From: Clostridiales bacterium
Lineage (GTDB): Bacteria; Bacillota; Clostridia; Peptostreptococcales; Acidaminobacteraceae
Assembly (NCBI GenBank): GCA_021107455.1
Contig: JAIOSU010000143.1
Span: forward strand, 1 to 64,000
Length of the DNA stretch: 64,000 nucleotides
Reading direction: 5' to 3'
Part shown: positions 15,467 to 29,828 of the stretch, piece by piece
How the letters are laid out: each line of letters begins with the position of its first letter
Numbering within the stretch: position 1 is the stretch's first letter
Made by a program: the position numbers and the translations under genes
Notes under the pieces: model-generated
Told to the model about the DNA's origin: nothing
Databases searched by the model: none
What the model saw: the letters and a program-made list of their open reading frames with translations, nothing else

Positions 15467-17662
15467 TTATACTACCTTAAAACGATTGGTTTCCGTTTCC
15501 AGTAGACCGGCCATATTTTTGAGTTCCGTGATGCTTGCTGCGATTTCCTCAAAAGTCGCTACTTGGCTCTCAACGCTTTCACCGATTCGCTCAGATGAAG
15601 CGACATTGCCTTGCATGACATGTGAAAGTTCATCGATTGCTTTGGCCATTTCCTCTGAAATCATTGATTGTTGATGTGCGCCGTGACTGATATTCGTCAT
15701 TTTAACTGCTATCGCCTCTATCAGACTGAGAATTTGATTGAAACTCACGCTGGTATCATTGGCTTCGCTGACACTAATATCCACAAGCGTTTGCTCTTTG
15801 ATCATGGTTTCACTCGCACCTTTTATATCCTTAGAGATTTGAGAGATGATGTCATTGATTTTGAAAGCCGAACCTTTGCTCTGCTCCGCCAATTTTCTGA
15901 CCTCTTCCGCCACAACCGAGAAACCTCTTCCATGTTCTCCCGCTCGGGCCGCCTCTATGGAGGCATTGAGTGCAAGAAGTGATGTCTGTTCTGCTATGGC
16001 ATTGATCATATTGACTATGCCAACAATTTCTTCGGATGACATTTTCAGGGCACCGATGACACCTGCCATGGATTCTGTCGAGTTCTTCACTTGTCCAATG
16101 CTGTTCACCACTTTTGATAGCTTCTCCACGCCGTTTTTCGATGCAGATAGCACTTGTTTGGAATCACTTGCCACAGCATCGGCTTCCTTAGAAATCATTT
16201 GGGCGCTGCTGGAAAGCTCCTCTATGCCGGCAGTGGTCTGCTCAACAACACTTGCGCTGTTTTGTAGGCCATCAACCATGTTCCTGACTTCAAAATTGAC
16301 CTGTTCTATACTCTCGTTAGCCTGTTCTATGGCTTCGTGAATTTCATCCGTATAGTTTGTGAGTGAAGCTGCACTAGCTTTCACCTGAATCACAACGTTT
16401 CTGATTTTCATGACAAATTGATTGAAGAGTTTGGCAAGAGTGCCGATTTCTTCTCTAGTATTGATATTCAGTTCTTTTGTCAGGTCACCTTCACCGTCTG
16501 AAATGTCACTGAGCATCTTGTTCACGTTTGTAAGTGGTTTTGAGATAATGTTCGAAAGTATAACAGCAAACCCTATAGCAACCAAAGTGATTATTGCGAC
16601 TGTAAGAAGAAGCATCATCATGGTTCCAGCTATTTGATCTTCAAGTCTTTGCTTGATACTGTCATTGAAGATGTCTGCCATGTCAGTTGCTTCTGCGCTC
16701 AAAGCCCCGATTTTAGCAAATAAACCTTCACTTTCGTTCCTTCCAATAACATTGTCGATTTCCACAAGTTCAAGGAATTTGTCGGTATACCCAGTTGCGA
16801 TCCCTCTGTACTCATCTTTGAACTTTTGGGTGTAATCTCCTAAAGCCACCTGGGTGTTTGGATACCCCAGTCGATCTGCGATCTGTTTTTGATAGCGTGC
16901 TTCTTGGGTATACAAGTAGTTGATGTGAGCCAGATCAAGATTGGCAAGTGCTTTCACCAGATTTTCATCTTGTGGTAGAGACACCAACTTATTTTTGAGC
17001 AGTTTTCTTAGCGATTCGATTTCACCGATGACGCCATATTCACCGAATCCACGCTTTTGAATGTTGAGATGCATTTCATTGAAGGTTTGTCTGTAGACTG
17101 ATAATTTCCCTTCAAGTTTGTAGAGTTGGTCGATAAGGTCTTCATCGTTTTTGATCAACGATGTTTTTCTGAGCTCATCAATCGTCTTTAGAACATTGTT
17201 ATAGTGTTCACCAAACTCCATACTGCGTTCAGTAGGACTGAGTTGTCCTTCTTGCAGTGTCTGAGCCGCTTTAAAGAATTCTTCATTGGAACGGTCTATG
17301 ATCACAAAATCCCGTTGCGTCACATTCATTTCTTGTACCGAACTGGCAATGACTGTTTGAGCTTCAATGATAGGAATGTAATCCTTAACGATTCTTCCAA
17401 TGAAATTGTAAGCAGTTGCAGTGATAAAAATAAGTGAAAGTATGATGACGATAAAACCTATGAATATTTTTTGCCTGATTTTCCAATTTCTAAATTCAAA
17501 TTTCTTTCCTGACGAATCCTTCATGCGTTTGAAAGTTGTTTTTTTGAGATGAAACCTTTTTTTCTCTCTATTTTTTTTAGGTTTTCTCTCTCTTTTTCCC
17601 TTTTTTAATTTCAATCCCTTTCCCACACCTGTGCTGTCAATCTTTCTTTTGAATTTGAACAT
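15467..17662 (-). CDS. Methyl-accepting chemotaxis protein with lysine/arginine-rich N-terminal extension
   Basis: [40 protein letters not shown] signalling hairpin; HAMP-like region; two TMs; [11 protein letters not shown] start at 17662. Confidence 0.93.
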
Positions 17663-17809
17663 TGAATCCTCCCCAATATGCCAAATTTTCGGACACCTAT
17701 AGAACATTATAACCAGTTGTCTCCATTTTATCTATCTCTAAATGCTCATGCCTTTTGATGTAACAAGCAAAAACATTGAAAAATCAATATTCATACCATA
17801 TAACTTATT

Positions 17810-19720
17810 TTATTTGCTCCCAAACATAATGGCTTTCATTACTTCCAGATTTTCGAAAAAGACGTCCACGATAACCGGATCCAAATGATTGCCTCTAGAG
17901 TTTCTAATGATGTCCAGTGAGTCGTCCAGAGAAAATGCTTCCTTATAAACCCGTTTTGAAGTCAAGGCATCAAACACATCAGCTATTGCGACTATTCGTG
18001 CAGATAGAGGTATTTCAGTACCTTTAAGTCCATCCGGATAGCCAGTGCCGTCCCACTTTTCATGATGGTGGCGTGCGATTTCCTCAGCCATTTTATAGAA
18101 ATCAGGATCAAATGCGGTGAGTCCCATTCTAAGATCTCTAAATATGTCCGCTCCAATGGCCGCATGAGTCTTCATAGTCACCCATTCATCCGGATTGAGT
18201 TTACCAGGCTTTTTCAGAACACTGTCAGGGATGCCTACTTTTCCGATATCGTGGGAAGAGGCATTTCGCTCTATTTCGAGTATGAACTTTCGGTCAATTT
18301 CATATCCAGGCATTTTTTTAAGTCTCAAACCTTTAGATATTGCAACGGAATATTTGACCATTCTGTTGATATGATCTCCGGTTTCATTGTCCTTCTGATC
18401 TACTAGTTCAGAAAAACTCGTTGTGATTTTCGAAAAAATGACCTTTGTGAAATAGGCACGATTTAGAAGCCCTTTTATCTCATATATCAATTTTTCTGCG
18501 AGCATCAAATGTTCCTGACCAAAAAAACGCTTTTCTTTGGAGCTGAGGAATACCATCCCAAAAACAGCATCCCCCATCGTCATCGGCAATACGAGATTGG
18601 ATTTGATGCCTTCATTACTCAGCAGAGCAAGTGCAGGACTCTCTGGACGATTCATAAAATCAAGCTCAAGGTCGGAAGTCATAAACGGTTGTTTATCCAC
18701 CAACATCTTGGACAGTCTGGACGAACCTATTTCCACCTCGAAACCTGGTCCCAGCAAAACTTCATCATAATTTGAGACGCCATATTCTGCAATCAGCAGG
18801 TTTCTGTCATAATCAACAAATGCGATTCCGATTCGATCGATCCCCATGACCTTTTCGAGACTTTCAAAAAGCGATTCGATGACATCGTCAACGATATAAT
18901 GCTCCAGTAAAATTTCTCTGATCTCAGCAATGAATTTCCTTTCATCAAACAATTGTTTAATGTTGGTTTTCATCTCTTTTTCCTCTTTGAATATGGATTT
19001 GACTGTCGGCAGACTCTCAAATTCAAACCGGTTGCTTCCAAGGGCTCTGAAGCTATGGTGTATAAAAATATACTCTTTTGATATGAACCTGATCACTCCG
19101 ATATTGTAACCGAGAAGCAGGATCAGCAATATGATCAACATGATATTGATGATAGCGTTCAAATCCCCGACAATAGCATCGTTGAGAATACGATGTTCAT
19201 TTTTTAACCGCAAGCTGAGTTCGGTATTTGATTCCTTGATTGCCTCAAGCGAATCATATGGGATGTCCTCAATTGATGCCACGGACATTATCATAGACAG
19301 TTCTTCTGCTTTTGAATTCATCTCATCAAGCAAATTTGAGAGTTCCAGTATGGATTTTCCATGCCTGGTAAGACTCATGGTATTTAGTTTGTCCCAATTG
19401 AATTTCAGTCCATCTATTTCGCCCATGATCTCACTTGATTTAAGTTCGAGAATCCCCTTGTTCCTATTGAATGCTTCTTGTAATGCGTCACTTACATCAG
19501 GTGTTTCAGACTTCTGAAGTTGTTGATGAATATTGCCCATTACACGTATGGATAGTTCCATTTCGGAGCGTTTTTCAGTGATGGATTCCTCATACGACTG
19601 ATTCTTTGCAGCATAAGTTCTGACTTCAGGCACAAAATAAAAATTAAGCCAGATCACGAACACAGAAAAGACGACAATTGTAAAAAGACTTAATCTCGTT
19701 ATTTTTTTAATACTGATCAT
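17810..19720 (-). CDS. Membrane-bound sensor with GAF-like and HD-GYP domains (putative c-di-GMP phosphodiesterase)
   Basis: HDIGKVGIPDSVLKKPGKL, ARHHHEKWDGTGYPDGLKGTEIPLSARIVAIADVFDALTS; two N-terminal TMs flank an extracytoplasmic helical region. Confidence 0.9.
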   Translation of the reverse strand: MISIKKITRLSLFTIVVFSVFVIWLNFYFVPEVRTYAAKNQSYEESITEKRSEMELSIRVMGNIHQQLQKSETPDVSDALQEAFNRNKGILELKSSEIMGEIDGLKFNWDKLNTMSLTRHGKSILELSNLLDEMNSKAEELSMIMSVASIEDIPYDSLEAIKESNTELSLRLKNEHRILNDAIVGDLNAIINIMLIILLILLLGYNIGVIRFISKEYIFIHHSFRALGSNRFEFESLPTVKSIFKEEKEMKTNIKQLFDERKFIAEIREILLEHYIVDDVIESLFESLEKVMGIDRIGIAFVDYDRNLLIAEYGVSNYDEVLLGPGFEVEIGSSRLSKMLVDKQPFMTSDLELDFMNRPESPALALLSNEGIKSNLVLPMTMGDAVFGMVFLSSKEKRFFGQEHLMLAEKLIYEIKGLLNRAYFTKVIFSKITTSFSELVDQKDNETGDHINRMVKYSVAISKGLRLKKMPGYEIDRKFILEIERNASSHDIGKVGIPDSVLKKPGKLNPDEWVTMKTHAAIGADIFRDLRMGLTAFDPDFYKMAEEIARHHHEKWDGTGYPDGLKGTEIPLSARIVAIADVFDALTSKRVYKEAFSLDDSLDIIRNSRGNHLDPVIVDVFFENLEVMKAIMFGSK

Positions 19721-19837: not shown

Positions 19838-21499
19838 TTGAAGAATAATTTAAGATTACAAGGACTGGTCTTAGGATTGGTTCTTTTGTTGGCATCCATG
19901 GGATTTCTTCTTATAAAATATAATAAATCCGCATCTGCTTGGTATGATGATACCATTTCAAACTTAATGGGCGATCAAGCCCCCAAGACACTAATCGTCG
20001 GAAGAACACTTGACTCCATTGGTCTTGATCCAGCTGTCGTCACCGATTCAGAATCCTTTCAGGTCACTACCAATATCTATGAAGGACTTGTTAAATTCGA
20101 TACTACAGGATCCGAGGTTCTACCAAGTCTCGCTGAAAGTTGGAAGATGAGCGAGGATGGGAAAACATGGGTCTTCAAGATACGTGACAACATCAAATTC
20201 CACGACGGTTCCAAACTCAACGCCGAAGCAGTCTCATTCAATTTTCACCGTTGGATGGATATCGACAGCCCATATCATGCGGGGCATTTCAGTTATTGGA
20301 GCTACAGTTTTGGTGGTTTCCCAGGAATCGTGAAAAGCGTCACCGCACTTTCAGATTATTCGCTTGAGATTGTACTGAATGAACCTTATGCTCCATTTTT
20401 AAGCGTACTTTCAATGCCGTCTTTTGGAATTGCAAGTCCAGAAGCCATCATGAAATACAATGAGAATTTAAAACTCAGTCCTGTGGGTACTGGACCTTTC
20501 ATGTTTGAATCCTGGGAAAAGAATATTCAAATCACTCTTGAAAAAAATAAGGATTATTGGGGTACGAAAGCCAAAGTCGATCAGGTTGTTTTCAAGAAAA
20601 TCAGTTCACAAATCAGTAAAATTGACTTGCTTTTAGATGGCGAGGTGCATATCGTCGACGGCTTAAACCCATCTGAAGTCGACCAATCAAGAACAGACAA
20701 GCGTTTAAAACTTTATTATAGACCCTATTTCAATATCAGTTATATGGCACTCAACCACAACATAGAACCATTCGACAATCTGAAAGTCCGACAAGCCATA
20801 AGTCTTCTGATCGATAAAAACGAAATGATCAACGATGATCCCAATCCACTTACCAGACCTGCAAACACATTTTTGCCACCTGTTTTGCTCGGTTATCATG
20901 AATCCATCAAATCTCCCGAACCGGATGTCAATGCAGCCAAAAGACTTCTTTCAGAAGCTGGATATCCAGACGGGTTTACCACTTCGTTATGGGTGATGGA
21001 CCAACCAAGGGGATATATATCAAATCCTGTTCAAGTAGCGAAGTTTTTACAATCCGAGCTTTCAAAAGCCAGTATCACTGTGGATCTTCACATTATCAAA
21101 TGGGATACATTTATTGAAGCCATCAAAGAAGGCGATCACCCGATGGCAATTGTCGGATGGAACGGTGACATCGTGGATCCAGACAATTTCCTCTATACAT
21201 TTTTCTCTTCGGAAAACACTAAGTCGGGACTAGCACTGAACTATTCATTTTATGAAAATCCCACTGTGGACCGACTATTGGAACAAGCGAGAAATGTAAC
21301 GGACGTTGAATTCAGGAAAAGTCTTTACAGAGAAATACAGGAAATCATTGCCTCAGAGGTTGTATCCATACCTTTGACCCATACAATGACAGCCATTGGG
21401 TCATCCAATCTCGTCAAAGGATTCGAACCGCATATTACCGGAAAGGAAGTCCTGAATCAAATCGAGTTGATTGATGAAACGGACAAGGACGGAAAATGA
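19838..21499 (+). CDS. Peptide-type extracellular solute-binding protein (SBP_bac_5 family), N-terminally anchored without lipobox
   Basis: SLAESWKMSEDGKTWVFKIRDNIKFHDGSKLNAEAVSFNF, VRQAISLLIDKNEM, AKRLLSEAGYPDGF; TTG start after AAAGGGGA; no Cys in or after the signal region. Confidence 0.9.
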   Translation: MKNNLRLQGLVLGLVLLLASMGFLLIKYNKSASAWYDDTISNLMGDQAPKTLIVGRTLDSIGLDPAVVTDSESFQVTTNIYEGLVKFDTTGSEVLPSLAESWKMSEDGKTWVFKIRDNIKFHDGSKLNAEAVSFNFHRWMDIDSPYHAGHFSYWSYSFGGFPGIVKSVTALSDYSLEIVLNEPYAPFLSVLSMPSFGIASPEAIMKYNENLKLSPVGTGPFMFESWEKNIQITLEKNKDYWGTKAKVDQVVFKKISSQISKIDLLLDGEVHIVDGLNPSEVDQSRTDKRLKLYYRPYFNISYMALNHNIEPFDNLKVRQAISLLIDKNEMINDDPNPLTRPANTFLPPVLLGYHESIKSPEPDVNAAKRLLSEAGYPDGFTTSLWVMDQPRGYISNPVQVAKFLQSELSKASITVDLHIIKWDTFIEAIKEGDHPMAIVGWNGDIVDPDNFLYTFFSSENTKSGLALNYSFYENPTVDRLLEQARNVTDVEFRKSLYREIQEIIASEVVSIPLTHTMTAIGSSNLVKGFEPHITGKEVLNQIELIDETDKDGK

Positions 21500-22095
21500 T
21501 TATAAGAATTAGGAATTTGTTGATTTTACCAGTTTTGGCAATAATTCTTTATCTGATTTCAACAAACAATCCACTCTCTACCAATCTGAACGCACACGTA
21601 ATCCCTTCTCTGCCAAGACCAATAGCAGAAGAGACCATACTTGTCACATCGGCGGGACAAAGTACGGACACTTATATCATCAAGGATATTTCAAACAAGT
21701 TGATGATTCATAATTTTTTTATGCCACAAGCTGTGAATGATGACCTTGAAGAGATCAATACGATTGTTTTTGTCATTGGGTACAGCCCTCTCAGCGAGAA
21801 AGTTAACCAACTGAGCTATGAAAATGAGCTCAAAAGAATTGATAGTCTCTTGAACTATGCCTCCAATAATGAAGTCACTGTCATTTCCGTTTTTATTGGT
21901 GGCAAACAGCGCCGCGTGTCAGAAACCGATGAGATGCTTGGAAGCATTATTCCAAAATCCCATTATGTTATATCAACTTTCGAGGGTGATTTTGACCATT
22001 TCATTTCTGAAATGGCCAGACAAAACGATATCCCCTTGACTTTAGTTGAGAATATCACAGATGTATCAGAACCCTATGCATCTGCATTCAGGTAA
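21496..22095 (+). CDS. Small secreted/membrane-anchored protein of unknown function (possibly the DUF6305 family, from memory)
   Basis: N-terminal TM, then EETILVTSAGQSTDTYIIKDISNKL; ATGA start/stop overlap with upstream SBP gene. Confidence 0.65.
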   Translation: MIIRIRNLLILPVLAIILYLISTNNPLSTNLNAHVIPSLPRPIAEETILVTSAGQSTDTYIIKDISNKLMIHNFFMPQAVNDDLEEINTIVFVIGYSPLSEKVNQLSYENELKRIDSLLNYASNNEVTVISVFIGGKQRRVSETDEMLGSIIPKSHYVISTFEGDFDHFISEMARQNDIPLTLVENITDVSEPYASAFR

Positions 22096-22104
22096 GAGGT
22101 CTAT

Positions 22105-23466
22105 ATGATAGGAACTCAAAACAAAGACGAACTCAAATATGGTTTTGCGACGCTTTTTTTAGTGATGATGGCGGTCTTTTTTCCTGCGGTAACAGAAGAA
22201 TCATGGTTCAACATGATTGTCAAAATCAGAGAAGCAATCACTACTGGAGATAGCGGACACTTAATTTTACCTGCCGCATCAAACAATTTTTTACATGCGG
22301 TTCAAAGCACGCTGATTTTTCTCAGCATCTCATGTGTTCTCGTGCTTACAGGCAGTCAAAAGAAGATCAACGATAACATTCGATATGCGATTCACTTTTC
22401 AGCTTTCATTGGGATGAATCTGTTGATCGGTTATTGGATGAAGCTGCCTTGGGAGCCACTTAACGGAATGGTATCCGCACTTGTAACCCTACTTTTGATC
22501 AAACCTTCAATAGGTGACAACTATCCATTATTTCGATCATCAGTGTTGTCCATTCAGATTTTTTTTGCGTTCTCCTGGCTTAACATCATGCCGGCATTGA
22601 ACTCTTATCAATTTGGAGTCACTGATGTAGCCACCAGCATAAAAATCACATCAGTATATCTGCACAGTACATCCGTGATGAACTTTATGGGACTTGCATT
22701 TTTTCTTCCTATGTTTTTGTCTGCAATCATCACATCGATTCTTTTCATGTCACATGACAGGAATATCAGTATCGCAAAGGAGAACTTTCAGAAAGAAAAA
22801 GCACTTGTCGCCATTCAATCACAAGCGATGGAAAATAGAATTTATGAGGAGATCAACTCACTTACCCACGATCTCAAAACACCCCTTGTCACCATCAGAG
22901 GGCTCAATTCACTGCTGTCCATATCAAAAGATATCGGAAAAATAGGTGACTATACCGATCGCATTGAAAGTGCTGTCGGAAAAATGTCGGAGATGATTTC
23001 AAGTTTTCTGTACGATTCCTCAAGACAGCATCTGAATGTCGATGAAGTCGTTCAATATGTGCGGGCACAAATACCGGTTGAGGATGAACGACTAAATATT
23101 GAAATCCATGCGGAACCTGACTTACCTAGTATCTATGTCAACAAAATCCGCGTAGTCCGCGCACTGATCAACTTGATAGAGAACGCCATTGTAGTCCCCT
23201 ATACTCATGATTTCAAAGAAATTAATATTGAAGTCACCAGAAACGGCGACGATATCCAAATCATTATTTCTGACAACGGCATAGGCATCTCAAAAGAGAA
23301 ACTGGACAAAATTTGGATTGCTGGCTTCTCCACGAATCAAACTTCGGGTCTTGGTCTTTCCTTTGCCAAAAAAGTGATCGAAGACAACGAAGGCACTATA
23401 AAGCTCAAAAGTGAAGTAGGCATTGGTACAGTCGTGACTGTTTCATTTCCCGGACACTCCTCTTAA
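22105..23466 (+). CDS. Multi-TM sensor histidine kinase
   Basis: H-box LTHDLKTPLVTIRGL, N-box ALINLIENAIV, DNGIGISKEKLDKIW, TSGLGLSFAKKVIE; about 6-7 predicted TMs N-terminally. Confidence 0.9.
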   Translation: MIGTQNKDELKYGFATLFLVMMAVFFPAVTEESWFNMIVKIREAITTGDSGHLILPAASNNFLHAVQSTLIFLSISCVLVLTGSQKKINDNIRYAIHFSAFIGMNLLIGYWMKLPWEPLNGMVSALVTLLLIKPSIGDNYPLFRSSVLSIQIFFAFSWLNIMPALNSYQFGVTDVATSIKITSVYLHSTSVMNFMGLAFFLPMFLSAIITSILFMSHDRNISIAKENFQKEKALVAIQSQAMENRIYEEINSLTHDLKTPLVTIRGLNSLLSISKDIGKIGDYTDRIESAVGKMSEMISSFLYDSSRQHLNVDEVVQYVRAQIPVEDERLNIEIHAEPDLPSIYVNKIRVVRALINLIENAIVVPYTHDFKEINIEVTRNGDDIQIIISDNGIGISKEKLDKIWIAGFSTNQTSGLGLSFAKKVIEDNEGTIKLKSEVGIGTVVTVSFPGHSS

Positions 23467-23481
23467 GAAAGGTGGTCAACC

Positions 23482-24117
23482 ATGCAATCAGAGCGTAAGA
23501 AAAAAATCCTCATTATTGACGATGAAGCGGATATAGTTTACACCATCAAAGAAATATGTCTCTATTCCGGTTATGAAGTTGTCACTGCAAGTACCGGAAT
23601 CGAAGGAGTCAAAAAGTGTATCGATGAGAACCCAAACCTCGTGATTGTGGATTATCACATGCCGGGTTGGGATGGACTTACCACAGTAAAAAAAATCAAG
23701 GAACTGGATGAGGCGGTTGCAATCCTTGTCCTGACAGTTGATGAACGACAGGAAATCTCAGACAAATTTATCGAAGTCGGAGCGACAGACTTTGCAATCA
23801 AACCGATCAAGGCACCTGATTTGATCGCACGAATCAACGTCAATCTCAGAATCAACGCCATCCAGCTTCAATCCATGCGCTCCAGAGAAAAAATCTATGT
23901 GGAAAAAGGAATCAGTGCCGCTACTCTTTCATTGATCGTCGATTATTTGAAGGCGCAAACTGAAGGCGTTACCATTGACGATGTGGCACTCGGTGTGAGC
24001 CTTGCCTATCAAACTGTACATCGATACATCCATCATCTTCTGGATACAGGTGTTGTCGAAGTGATTCCAGTATATGGACAGGTCGGCAGACCTAAAAATA
24101 TCTATAGATTATGTTAA
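23482..24117 (+). CDS. Response regulator with CitB/DcuR-like C-terminal HTH
   Basis: IIDDEADIVYTIKE, VDYHMPGWDGL, IKPIKAPDL receiver motifs; C-terminus EKGISAATLSLIVDYLKAQTEGVTIDDVALGVSLAYQTVHRYIHHLLDTGVVEVIPVYGQVGRPKNIYR. Confidence 0.88.
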   Translation: MQSERKKKILIIDDEADIVYTIKEICLYSGYEVVTASTGIEGVKKCIDENPNLVIVDYHMPGWDGLTTVKKIKELDEAVAILVLTVDERQEISDKFIEVGATDFAIKPIKAPDLIARINVNLRINAIQLQSMRSREKIYVEKGISAATLSLIVDYLKAQTEGVTIDDVALGVSLAYQTVHRYIHHLLDTGVVEVIPVYGQVGRPKNIYRLC

Positions 24118-24253
24118 ATTCTCATTGCACATGTGAATGATTTGTAAATAAAATCAGAATAATCTCTCAGAGAAATATGTTAGAAAAATTTTCATTTGGT
24201 TTTCCTCCCTATATAATGATTTTAAGTTAAAAATAATCTCTAGGAGGAATACC

Positions 24254-25783
24254 ATGAAATCAAAAGACACTGCTGTCAAGAACAAGGGTTTATTCACTCG
24301 TTTTCTTGACCTGGTGGAAAGAGGCGGAAACAAATTGCCTCATCCTGTAACTATTTTCGTCATCTTATCCCTTATTGTTATTATTATTTCAGAAATTGCG
24401 GCACGCACCAACTTGACTGTATCTTACTATGATGCAAGATCAAAAGCTGATGCGACTGTTTCAGCGGTATCACTTTTAAATGCTGAAGGCATCCGTTACA
24501 TGTTCACTTCAGCTACAAAGAACTTCACAAGCTTCGCACCGCTCGGAACTGTGCTTGTAGCAATGCTTGGTGTAGGTGTAGCAGAAGGTACTGGACTTAT
24601 CGGTGCCACACTTAAGAAAATCGTACTTGGAACTCCAAAGAAACTCATTACTGCTGTTGTAGTATTGATGGGTATCATGTCAAACGTCGCATCAGATGCG
24701 GGTTACGTTGTACTTGTTCCACTTGGTGCCATTGTATTTTTAAGTTTCGGTAGACATCCACTCGCTGGTCTTGCAGCTGCATTTGCCGGCGTTTCAGCAG
24801 GTTTCTCAGCAAACCTATTACTTGGTACACTTGATCCATTACTTCAAGGGATCACAAATGAAGCTATTAAAGTTGGCGGTTTTGACTTTGAAATTTTACC
24901 AACTGCAAACTACTACTTCATGTTCGTCTCGACTTTCCTTCTCACAATCCTTGGTACTTGGGTCACTGAAAGAATAGTCGAGCCTAGACTTGGTGAATAC
25001 AAAGGTGAAAAACTCATTGAAACAATGGAAGTTTCTCCTGCTGAGAAAAAAGGTCTCAAAATGGCCGGACTCTCTATCCTTGCATTCTCAGCACTAATGT
25101 TATTCCTCACTGTTCCAAGCAATGGCCTACTAAGAGTGGATGGCGACCTCAATCCATTCATCGGAAACGGTCTTGTTCCAACAATCATGTTGTTCTTCTT
25201 GATTCCTGGTATCGCATTTGGTATGGCTGCCGGAACAATCAAGAGCGATAAAGATATTGTTCACTCAATGGGTAAAGCTATGGCTTCCATGGGTGGATAC
25301 CTTGTTCTTGCATTCGTGGCGTCACAGTTCGTTGCATACTTCAGCCACACCAACCTTGGAATCATCCTTGCTGTAAGTGGAGCAAACTTCCTTCAAGCAA
25401 TTGGATTCACTGGTTTACCATTAGTACTTGCATTTATTGTTGTTGCAGCATTCATCAACTTGTTCATTGGTTCAGCTTCTGCGAAGTGGGCGATTATGGC
25501 TCCAATATTCGTTCCGATGTTGATCCGTCTTGGAATCACGCCTGAGTTCACACAACTTGCATACAGAATTGGTGACTCTTCAACAAACATCATATCACCA
25601 CTCATGTCTTACTTTGCAGTTATCATCACATTTGCACAAAAATATGAGGAAGACACAGGTATCGGTACTTTGATCTCAATGATGCTTCCATACTCAATCA
25701 TCTTCTTGTTGGGCTGGACAATCATGATGGCTCTCTGGTACTTCACTGGATTGCCAATCGGTCCTGATGCGTTCATGAGATAA
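24254..25783 (+). CDS. AbgT family transporter
   Basis: LDLVERGGNKLPHPVTIFVILSL, APLGTVLVAMLGVGVAEGTGLI, SDAGYVVLVPLGA, AGVSAGFSANLLLGTLDPLLQGIT. Confidence 0.92.
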   Translation: MKSKDTAVKNKGLFTRFLDLVERGGNKLPHPVTIFVILSLIVIIISEIAARTNLTVSYYDARSKADATVSAVSLLNAEGIRYMFTSATKNFTSFAPLGTVLVAMLGVGVAEGTGLIGATLKKIVLGTPKKLITAVVVLMGIMSNVASDAGYVVLVPLGAIVFLSFGRHPLAGLAAAFAGVSAGFSANLLLGTLDPLLQGITNEAIKVGGFDFEILPTANYYFMFVSTFLLTILGTWVTERIVEPRLGEYKGEKLIETMEVSPAEKKGLKMAGLSILAFSALMLFLTVPSNGLLRVDGDLNPFIGNGLVPTIMLFFLIPGIAFGMAAGTIKSDKDIVHSMGKAMASMGGYLVLAFVASQFVAYFSHTNLGIILAVSGANFLQAIGFTGLPLVLAFIVVAAFINLFIGSASAKWAIMAPIFVPMLIRLGITPEFTQLAYRIGDSSTNIISPLMSYFAVIITFAQKYEEDTGIGTLISMMLPYSIIFLLGWTIMMALWYFTGLPIGPDAFMR

Positions 25784-25828: not shown

Positions 25829-25859
25829 ACTTTTTACTATTTTTTTGGAGGTAATGAAT

Positions 25860-26975
25860 ATGATCAACAAGGAAAGAATCGTTAACTCATTTATGGATTA
25901 TGTAAAAATATCAAGCCCTACAAAACAAGAAGGAAAATTTGCCGAGTTCATTTCTAAAGAACTTGAAGCCCTCGGTATGGAAGTCACGATAGATGATGCT
26001 GGTCCCAAAGTGGGCAGTGATACTGGAAATGTCATAGCCAAACTGAAAGGTAACGCTCCTGGTGAAACCATATTGTTCAGTTGCCACATGGATACTGTAT
26101 CTCCTGGCATCGACATTAAACCTGAAATCCGCGATGGCGTGATTTACAGTGACGGCACCACTGTTCTCGGTGGTGATGACAAAGCTGGAATCGCTGCTGT
26201 AGTGGAAGCCATAAGAGCAATCAAGGAAAACAATCTCCCTCACGCAGATATCGAAATCGCATTCAGTATATTTGAGGAAGGTGGCCTTCACGGCGCTAAG
26301 AATATCGATTATTCAACTCTTAATGCCAAAAGAGCATTTATCTTAGATAGTGGTGGAGAGCCTGGACAAATCATCGTCAAAGGTCCTGCCCAAGACAAGA
26401 TTGATGTAAAAGTCCTTGGAAAATCCGCTCATGCGGGCGTCGCACCTGAAGAAGGCATCAGCGCCATCATGGTTGCCAGCGCAGCGATCAGCCGTATGAA
26501 ACTGCTGAGAATCGATGAGGAGACTACTGCAAACATCGGAACCATAGAAGGCGGTAGCGTCACAAACATCGTTACTCCAGAAGTCATCATCAAAGCAGAA
26601 GCCAGAAGTCTTGACAACGACAAACTCAAAGCGCAATCAGACCATATGGTGGAATGTTTTGAGTCAGCGGCAAAAGAGTTCGGTGCAAAAGTTGAATGCG
26701 ATGTCGTTCGTATGTATTCTGCGTTCTCTGTTGATGTTGAAGCACCGATCGTGAAAACAACCATAAAGGCATGCGAGAACATCGGTCTGAAGCCATTTAC
26801 AGCCGCATCAGGCGGTGGTAGCGACACCAATGTGTACAACGCCAACGGAATCACTGCCATCAACCTAGGAATTGGCGAGAAAAAACCACACACGCTTGAA
26901 GAGCATCTCCACATTAAGGATCTTGTGGATTCATCAAGATTGGTGATGGAACTGATTAAGATACATTTATCATAG
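25860..26975 (+). CDS. M20 family metallopeptidase (PepT-like tripeptidase)
   Basis: FSCHMDTVSPGIDIKP, LGGDDKAGIAAVVEAI, FEEGGLHGAKN, KSAHAGVAPEEGISAI, GGGSDTNVYNANGI; ATG at 25860 after GGAGG. Confidence 0.9.
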   Translation: MINKERIVNSFMDYVKISSPTKQEGKFAEFISKELEALGMEVTIDDAGPKVGSDTGNVIAKLKGNAPGETILFSCHMDTVSPGIDIKPEIRDGVIYSDGTTVLGGDDKAGIAAVVEAIRAIKENNLPHADIEIAFSIFEEGGLHGAKNIDYSTLNAKRAFILDSGGEPGQIIVKGPAQDKIDVKVLGKSAHAGVAPEEGISAIMVASAAISRMKLLRIDEETTANIGTIEGGSVTNIVTPEVIIKAEARSLDNDKLKAQSDHMVECFESAAKEFGAKVECDVVRMYSAFSVDVEAPIVKTTIKACENIGLKPFTAASGGGSDTNVYNANGITAINLGIGEKKPHTLEEHLHIKDLVDSSRLVMELIKIHLS

Positions 26976-29280: not shown

Positions 29281-29357
29281 TGGTGCACCCGACGAGATTC
29301 GAACTCACAACCAACGGATTCGAAGTCCGCTACTCTATCCGATTGAGCTACGGGTGC
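29281..29357 (-). tRNA. tRNA-Arg (TCG)
   Basis: Cloverleaf GCACCCG...CGGACTTCGAATCCG...GAGTTCGAATCTC...CGGGTGCACCA, encoded CCA. Confidence 0.93.
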
Positions 29358-29377
29358 CAATGTTGAATATAAATAAA

Positions 29378-29401
29378 AAAGTCACTCCAAAGAGTGACTT
29401 T
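29378..29401 (-). terminator. Rho-independent terminator inside the tRNA cluster
   Basis: Minus strand AAAGTCACTC-TTTG-GAGTGACTTTTTTATTT. Confidence 0.8.
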
Positions 29402-29406
29402 CATCA

Positions 29407-29482
29407 TGGTGATCCATCCGCGACTCGAACGCGGGACACCCTGATTAAAAGTCAGGTGCTCTACCGACTGAGCTAATGGATC
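29407..29482 (-). tRNA. tRNA-Lys (TTT)
   Basis: GATCCATTAGCTCAGTCGGTAGAGCACCTGACTTTTAATCAGG...GTTCGAGTC...ATGGATCACCA. Confidence 0.94.
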
Positions 29483-29485
29483 CTA

Positions 29486-29560
29486 TGGCTGGGGATACAG
29501 GATTTGAACCTGTGAATGACGGAGTCAAAGTCCGTTGCCTTACCGCTTGGCGAATCCCCA
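29486..29560 (-). tRNA. tRNA-Gln (TTG)
   Basis: TGGGGATTCGCCAAGCGGTAAGGCAACGGACTTTGACTCCG...GGTTCAAATCC...ATCCCCAGCCA. Confidence 0.94.
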
Positions 29561-29566
29561 ATAAAA

Positions 29567-29643
29567 TGGGGCGACTGATGGGATTTGAACCCACGCATGA
29601 AGGAGTCACAGTCCTTTGTCTTAACCACTTGACGACAGTCGCC
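29567..29643 (-). tRNA. tRNA-His (GTG)
   Basis: GGCGACTG...AAGGACTGTGACTCCTT...GGGTTCAAATCCC...CAGTCGCCCCA with encoded G-1:C73 pair. Confidence 0.93.
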
Positions 29644-29670
29644 ACAACATTCGAAAATAAACAAAATTAA

Positions 29671-29747
29671 TGGTGCGTCCGAAGGGACTCGAACCCCTAA
29701 CCCCCGCCTTAGAAGGGCGGTGCTCTATCCAGTTGAGCTACGAACGC
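29671..29747 (-). tRNA. tRNA-Arg (TCT)
   Basis: GCGTTCGTAGCTCAACTGGATAGAGCACCGCCCTTCTAAGGCGG...GGTTCGAGTCC...CGGACGCACCA. Confidence 0.93.
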
Positions 29748-29751
29748 ACAT

Positions 29752-29828
29752 TGGTCGGGGTGGCAGGATTTGAACCCGCGGCCCTCTGGTCCCAAACCAG
29801 ATGCGCTACCAAACTGCGCTACACCCCG
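29752..29828 (-). tRNA. tRNA-Pro (TGG)
   Basis: CGGGGTGTAGCGCAGTTTGGTAGCGCATCTGGTTTGGGACCAGA...GGTTCAAATCC...CACCCCGACCA. Confidence 0.94.

Follow-up and report, generated by a model that had tools for sequence, protein, structure and literature searches.

What is a dipeptide-type solute-binding protein (SBP) for when its gene stands at the head of a set of signalling genes? This question is raised by positions 19838–24117 of the window, the whole 64-kb stretch of DNA from a Clostridiales bacterium that was analysed here, where an SBP, a small protein of the DUF6305 family, a sensor histidine kinase (HK) and a response regulator (RR) are encoded in series. The reading favoured here, with a probability of roughly 0.7, is that these four components form a dedicated dipeptide-sensing operon which would switch on a neighbouring peptide-uptake operon, consisting of an AbgT-family transporter gene (abgT) and a PepT-like peptidase gene. 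The features on which the argument draws are the following (TM, transmembrane; HTH, helix-turn-helix).

19838–21499, plus strand: SBP gene; SBP_bac_5 family (DppA-like), TM-anchored, without lipobox, TTG start
21496–22095, plus strand: DUF6305 (PF19823) gene; 199 amino acids, N-terminal TM helix followed by an extracytoplasmic Rossmann-like alpha/beta domain
22105–23466, plus strand: HK gene; N-terminal domain of about 6 TM helices, then HisKA (H255) and HATPase_c
23482–24117, plus strand: RR gene; Response_reg (D57) and a CitB/DpiA-like winged HTH
24165–24190, plus strand: conserved cis-site, candidate RR operator; core 24169–24188, AGAGAAATATGTTAGAAAAA
24189–24217, plus strand: putative promoter of abgT (TTTTCA-17-TATAAT), immediately adjacent to the cis-site
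24254–25783, plus strand: AbgT-family transporter gene (PF03806), proposed regulated target
25845–26975, plus strand: PepT-like M20 peptidase gene (TIGR01883), proposed regulated target

The original prediction, made from the sequence alone, had described four open reading frames (ORFs) with a TTG start and an ATGA overlap, and all of these are present. The SBP and DUF6305 genes overlap by 4 bp (ATGA), gaps of 9 bp and 15 bp separate DUF6305 from HK and HK from RR, and the same-genus locus L128 has kept both the TTG start and the AAAGGGGAT in front of it. The further claim that no ABC transporter is encoded there holds for the permease and ATPase genes of an oligopeptide or dipeptide (Opp/Dpp) ATP-binding cassette (ABC) importer, none of which adjoins the operon. 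It does not extend to transporters in general, as the genes for AbgT (PF03806, E=1.3e-193 in Pfam) and the peptidase (TIGR01883 match above cut-off) had been missed; they follow on the same strand after gaps of 136 bp and 61 bp, and the strand switches downstream of the peptidase gene.

The SBP belongs firmly to SBP_bac_5 (PF00496, E=1.7e-100, 337 bits against a gathering score of 32.4), and its best solved relatives are the HbpA/AI-2 binding protein and DppA. R355 of DppA takes part in dipeptide contact. Together with Y357, W386 and D408 it corresponds to R391, Y393, W422 and D444 of the window protein, and these four residues are invariant in all 24 SBPs of such cassettes and in the SBPs linked to Opp-type loci, while most unrelated SBPs of the same loci have not kept them. 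In DppA, D408 binds the amino terminus of the dipeptide (PMC3295651). The E. coli protein shares the family and these contact residues with the window SBP; it differs in being a soluble periplasmic component of an ABC importer, the window protein being TM-anchored and encoded with a two-component system (TCS).

This anchor appears to be a derived trait. Since there is no Cys among its first 60 residues, the window SBP lacks a lipobox, as had been predicted, and a TM anchor is present instead. In the SBP tree, cassette SBPs and those of Opp-type loci form one group, in which the window type is sister to the SBPs of complete Opp operons. The lipobox-less proteins fall into one 20-row clade (SH-aLRT 99), with L066 as a separate case, and share the TM anchor and the lack of a Dpp/Opp permease of their own alongside. 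A lipobox is present in Opp-linked SBPs (in L071 it lies further in, the ORF start having been called too far upstream) and also in the basal cassette SBPs of L036, L043, L053 and L156, so the lipobox was lost after the SBP had moved beside the sensor genes. In L140 a Cys at position 12 lies within the TM segment and is not counted as a lipobox. Absence of a lipobox, retention of the contact residues and absence of an own permease are together what would be expected of a dedicated sensor. This role, already proposed from the window, is favoured also by the conserved gene order and the cis-site described below, and is weakened by distant loci that hold Opp/Dpp operons.

The kinase offers little on the outside for such a sensor to touch. 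It contains the expected boxes (H255, N360, DNGIGI, GLGL) behind an N-terminus of about 6 TM helices with the short conserved extracytoplasmic helices WFN.I.KIREAI..GDSG and FG..D..SIKI..YL. In the structural model, only short helices (31–47 and 163–185) lie between the TM helices, with no sizeable docking domain. No known sensor domain was recognised, as no Pfam family matched more than one of 22 members and Foldseek gave no match at E <0.1. With so little exposed outside the cell, the kinase plausibly depends on extracytoplasmic partners, for which the SBP and DUF6305 would be the candidates.

The regulator had been predicted to possess a CitB-like HTH, which Pfam recognises weakly (HTH_64 in six of 24 orthologues, in no case with E below 1e-3). 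When profiles were compared, it aligned end to end with E. coli DpiA/CitB at a probability of 98.6%. The motifs LAYQTVHRY and YGxxGRPK are nearly invariant among relatives. CitA/CitB (DpiBA) and DcuSR may share this type of output domain; they differ from the window system in their kinases, as the kinase here is of the HisKA type with 6 TM helices and no detected PAS sensor domain.

The small protein, described earlier as unknown and anchored, is indeed anchored. It does belong to a named Pfam family, DUF6305 (PF19823; E=6e-49, 166 bits against a gathering score of 25, model positions 1–154 of 154), to which Pfam assigns no function, and the term DUF6305 found no paper in the literature library searched. 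AlphaFold models the protein with a single TM helix and, confidently, a Rossmann-like domain (pLDDT 90). Homology to a solved structure was rejected, as a profile search of PDB sequences gave no match and Foldseek returned generic alpha/beta folds only, with TM-scores <0.46.

The distribution of DUF6305 was surveyed in 399 sampled genomes of the phylum and 41 of the family, and it was present in 46 and 14 of them, respectively. By named relatives, the close family is centred on Fusibacter and Acidaminobacter, with more copies in Tepidibacter and Maledivibacter. DUF6305 lies directly upstream of this HK in 45 loci, and in 24 of these (about 20 genomes) the SBP gene precedes it, which bears out the expected co-occurrence of all four genes in the same order. 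Because the loci had been found through DUF6305, a reciprocal search with a profile of the HK N-terminus was run; 33 of 38 HK-positive genomes contained DUF6305, compared with 46/399 overall (Fisher p=2e-32). Three architectures were distinguished, in the first of which (a) SBP-DUF6305-HK-RR is combined with a target other than Opp.

(a) with AbgT and PepT: the window, L127, L138, L149 and L174; divergent in L140
(a) with AbgT alone: L159, divergent
(a) with PepT alone: L139, divergent
(a) with an OPT oligopeptide transporter: Tepidibacter L150, L153 and L154 (L150 by Pfam test, L153 and L154 by size and position)
(a) with a DUF3798 and BPD_transp_2 ABC transporter: L152, L162, L163, L133 and L134, with L155 and L043 partly seen (Pfam tests on L152, L165, which equals L134, and L043; others by size and position)
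(b) DUF6305-HK-RR followed by OppD-OppF-SBP-OppB-OppC: L032, L042, L044, L046–L048, L065, L067, L078 and L079
(c) HK-RR with DUF6305 beside PgsB, PgsC and PgsW (poly-gamma-glutamate), a DcuC/DctM-like transporter and AstE-like, gamma-glutamyltranspeptidase or C69 dipeptidase genes

The theme common to the three architectures is peptides and glutamyl compounds. Some loci vary these arrangements: in L036 the Opp genes lie upstream of SBP-DUF6305-HK-RR, in L153 the cassette is immediately preceded by a separate Opp cluster that has an SBP of its own, and in G461 the cassette ends one contig and AbgT-PepT begins another (L175, L176). The six family AbgT proteins at least 73% identical to that of the window all adjoin the cassette, G461 across its contig break; those of G402 and G422 (65–68% identical to the window's) occur as AbgT-PepT without it. 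Homologous loci with oligopeptide permeases had been named in advance as evidence against a sensor role. At the family level they are found in part, since distant homologous loci include complete Opp/Dpp operons, the SBP there being a lipoprotein beside permease genes.

Across these loci, DUF6305, HK and RR are the constant partners and the SBP an exchangeable input. DUF6305 may therefore matter more than was assumed at first. We lean slightly towards a broader reading, in which the operon belongs to a previously undescribed signalling family spread across the Bacillota. Its core of DUF6305, a 6-TM kinase and a CitB-like regulator acting at one cis-site would have been kept, with inputs (an Opp lipoprotein SBP, an anchored SBP or none) and outputs (Opp, AbgT, OPT, DUF3798-ABC or a poly-gamma-glutamate cluster) being swapped, and DUF6305 would be the missing adaptor that links peptide-binding proteins to the kinase outside the membrane.

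A stronger version would make DUF6305 itself the true input of the kinase, with the SBP merely concentrating peptides near the membrane or being an optional add-on. DUF6305 does accompany HK and RR both in Opp-type loci, whose SBP gene is placed among those of the transporter, and in the SBP-less Pgs-type loci; elsewhere it stands next to gamma-glutamyl/dipeptide hydrolases and transporters with no HK present. In the window clade, however, the SBP gene invariably comes first in the operon, with all tested dipeptide-contact residues kept, and in the window it overlaps the DUF6305 gene translationally; this version seems less likely than not.

The output side of the favoured sensor–regulator model is drawn from a repeated string of about 20 bp upstream of transporter genes, in the window at 24169–24188 (core AGAGAAAWAWGTKAKAAAA). 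A matrix built from 18 loci has the consensus TTTCAGAGAAAAAAGTGATAAAAATA; in a leave-one-out scan the cis-site ranked first in all 18, and the window copy scored 24.4 bits, the next best match in the 64 kb reaching 13.0. When 1.8 Mb of retrieved sequence was scanned, the strong matches lay almost exclusively at these operons. A matrix trained on cassette sites only detected the related form AGAGAAATAWGAGAKAAAATAG after RR in most Opp and Pgs loci, beating nearly all of 200 shuffles, and found no site in the five of five loci where a helicase gene, uvrD, follows RR. The best site of L053 and of L071 is instead found upstream of the operon itself. A second matrix match (about 20–22 bits) lies inside an ORF of Maledivibacter halophilus (L159:1168–1193).

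At the level of whole genomes, 11 contain the perfect pattern. Ten of these have it once, at the cassette; G466 has it at another place, and its cassette site departs from the pattern by one mismatch. One-mismatch matches are about as frequent as those of a reversed-pattern control. A genome-wide regulon was therefore rejected and only perfect sites are trusted. In the window's genome, a one-mismatch Opp-type site lies between a gene for a lipoprotein OppA-like SBP and a divergent membrane-protein gene (G000:C278:966–984, that is L113:966–984); it may be a second target or a chance match.

The site has a fixed relation to its promoter, as its core starts 42–44 bp ahead of a TATAAT-like −10 element in most loci (43 bp in the window). 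Promoter scanning alone performed at chance level, so the promoter claim rests on this conserved spacing. The cis-site marks the adjacent transporter operon as a likely target. Because site and regulator travel together and LAYQTVHRY is nearly invariant, we infer that the cognate RR is its binder. The site could instead be bound by another regulator, or be a promoter element of a special kind, with the TCS controlling something else, given that the pairing of RR and site is deduced from sequence. This seems unlikely in view of how closely the site tracks the TCS, over about 40 loci with non-homologous target genes (AbgT, OPT and DUF3798-ABC operons among them), in the same loci where the RR recognition region hardly varies; it is missing before uvrD, and in the divergent loci L140, L159, L133, L134 and L139 it is oriented to the transporter or peptidase, not the SBP.

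Least probable is that the SBP is a transport component feeding a Dpp/Opp ABC transporter encoded elsewhere and that the TCS is a neighbour regulating it: its sister relation to SBPs of complete Opp operons and the several other Opp/Dpp clusters of the genome would fit, but all four of the clusters inspected carry their own SBP, window-clade SBPs have exchanged the lipobox for an anchor with no Dpp permease of their own alongside, and the cis-site points to AbgT, OPT and DUF3798-ABC operons as the targets.

Under the sensor–regulator model, the membrane-anchored DppA-like SBP would capture a dipeptide-type ligand outside the cell. The loaded SBP would then act on the 6-TM HK at its short extracytoplasmic helices, either directly or via the anchored DUF6305; the exact contact order from SBP to DUF6305 to HK is held with lower confidence than the model as a whole. 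The HK would phosphorylate RR at D57, allowing it to bind 24169–24188, right next to the −35 region of the abgT promoter, and to activate abgT and the PepT-like peptidase gene. As a proposed consequence, peptides would be imported, presumably by AbgT, and then hydrolysed. Transporters of the AbgT and OPT families are not known to use an SBP.

Several points weigh against this model. Adjacency of SBP and HK genes is no proof of coupling, and the SBPs PA0602, AgtB and PA4985 did not bind the neighbouring kinases AgtS and AruS (PMC11113362). In CuaS and LytS, SBPs contact a large extracytoplasmic domain, and this HK has none. The kinase design can do without an SBP, as shown by the Pgs-type members, which lack one. 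Drug efflux is another function described for AbgT proteins, and TIGR00819 is named antimetabolite efflux transporter. Finally, the site is weak or absent in L032 (with the strict matrix), L036, L066, L072, L073 and L160.

Kinases activated by SBPs are established in CuaDSR (PMC10384115), XylFII-LytS (as described in PMC9769921 and PMC10384115) and BctC-BctE (PMC9602780). Among the closest parallels is CuaDSR of Ruminiclostridium cellulolyticum, another member of the Clostridia, in which a dedicated sensing SBP gene for cellobiose adjoins HK and RR genes and the system controls an uptake operon. It differs in its sugar-binding lipoprotein SBP, in CuaS with 2 TM helices and a large extracytoplasmic domain, in its AraC-type RR (PMC10384115), in a target that is an ABC importer with its own SBP, and in the absence of DUF6305. 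XylFII-LytS of the Gram-positive Clostridium beijerinckii likewise has a sensing-only extracytoplasmic SBP bound to its kinase; it differs in its ligand, xylose, in the four-helix-bundle sensor domain of LytS (PMC9769921, PMC10384115), in the absence of DUF6305 and in an unrelated HK N-terminus. In Bordetella pertussis, BctC-BctE/D also couples an SBP-activated HK to up-regulation of a transporter, and differs in that its TctC-type citrate SBP serves the transporter as well (PMC9602780).

What sets the present system apart from these is the TM-anchored dipeptide-type SBP, DUF6305 as a partner, a kinase that has no large sensor domain, transporters that can be exchanged and a candidate operator shared across the phylum. 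If the model is true, it would add a dipeptide-sensing SBP–kinase system without a large kinase sensor domain, and propose a role for DUF6305. It would also show a transporter component converted to a dedicated sensor, with its lipobox lost, a TM anchor gained and the permeases gone, next to an operator still recognisable across the phylum. That operator allows the targets of the regulator to be read from genomes, and the natural substrate class of AbgT in anaerobes becomes testable.

Some further observations concern the transporter loci. In the window's genome, two M20-type amidohydrolase-like genes flank the gene of a second AbgT, a more distant one with 47% identity (L179:1886–5818, G000:C248), and this arrangement resembles AbgAB-AbgT. 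Small PqqD-domain proteins are encoded after OPT in Tepidibacter (L150:13750–14109) and as the first gene behind the cis-site in L137 (3264–3722). In L155, L162 and L163, long AT-rich leaders between RR or HK and the DUF3798 gene end in a conserved hairpin-like element (TTxGGAAAGC..GCTTTCCAGxCTAATA); a known riboswitch in these leaders was rejected, as Rfam gave no match. At L034:7051–13761, PgsB-PgsC-PgsW stand beside a DUF6305 fused to an AstE/AspA-like domain, HK, RR, a second DUF6305, a DcuC/DctM-like 13-TM protein and C69 dipeptidases, possibly a cluster for poly-gamma-glutamate salvage or transport under the same TCS family.

Elsewhere in the window, a methyl-accepting chemotaxis protein (HAMP and MCPsignal) and a GAF and HD-GYP protein are encoded divergently just upstream of the operon (15467–19720), and genes of like size and strand lie upstream of it in the genus relatives L127 and L128. 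Six tRNA genes are clustered on the minus strand at 29284–29828.

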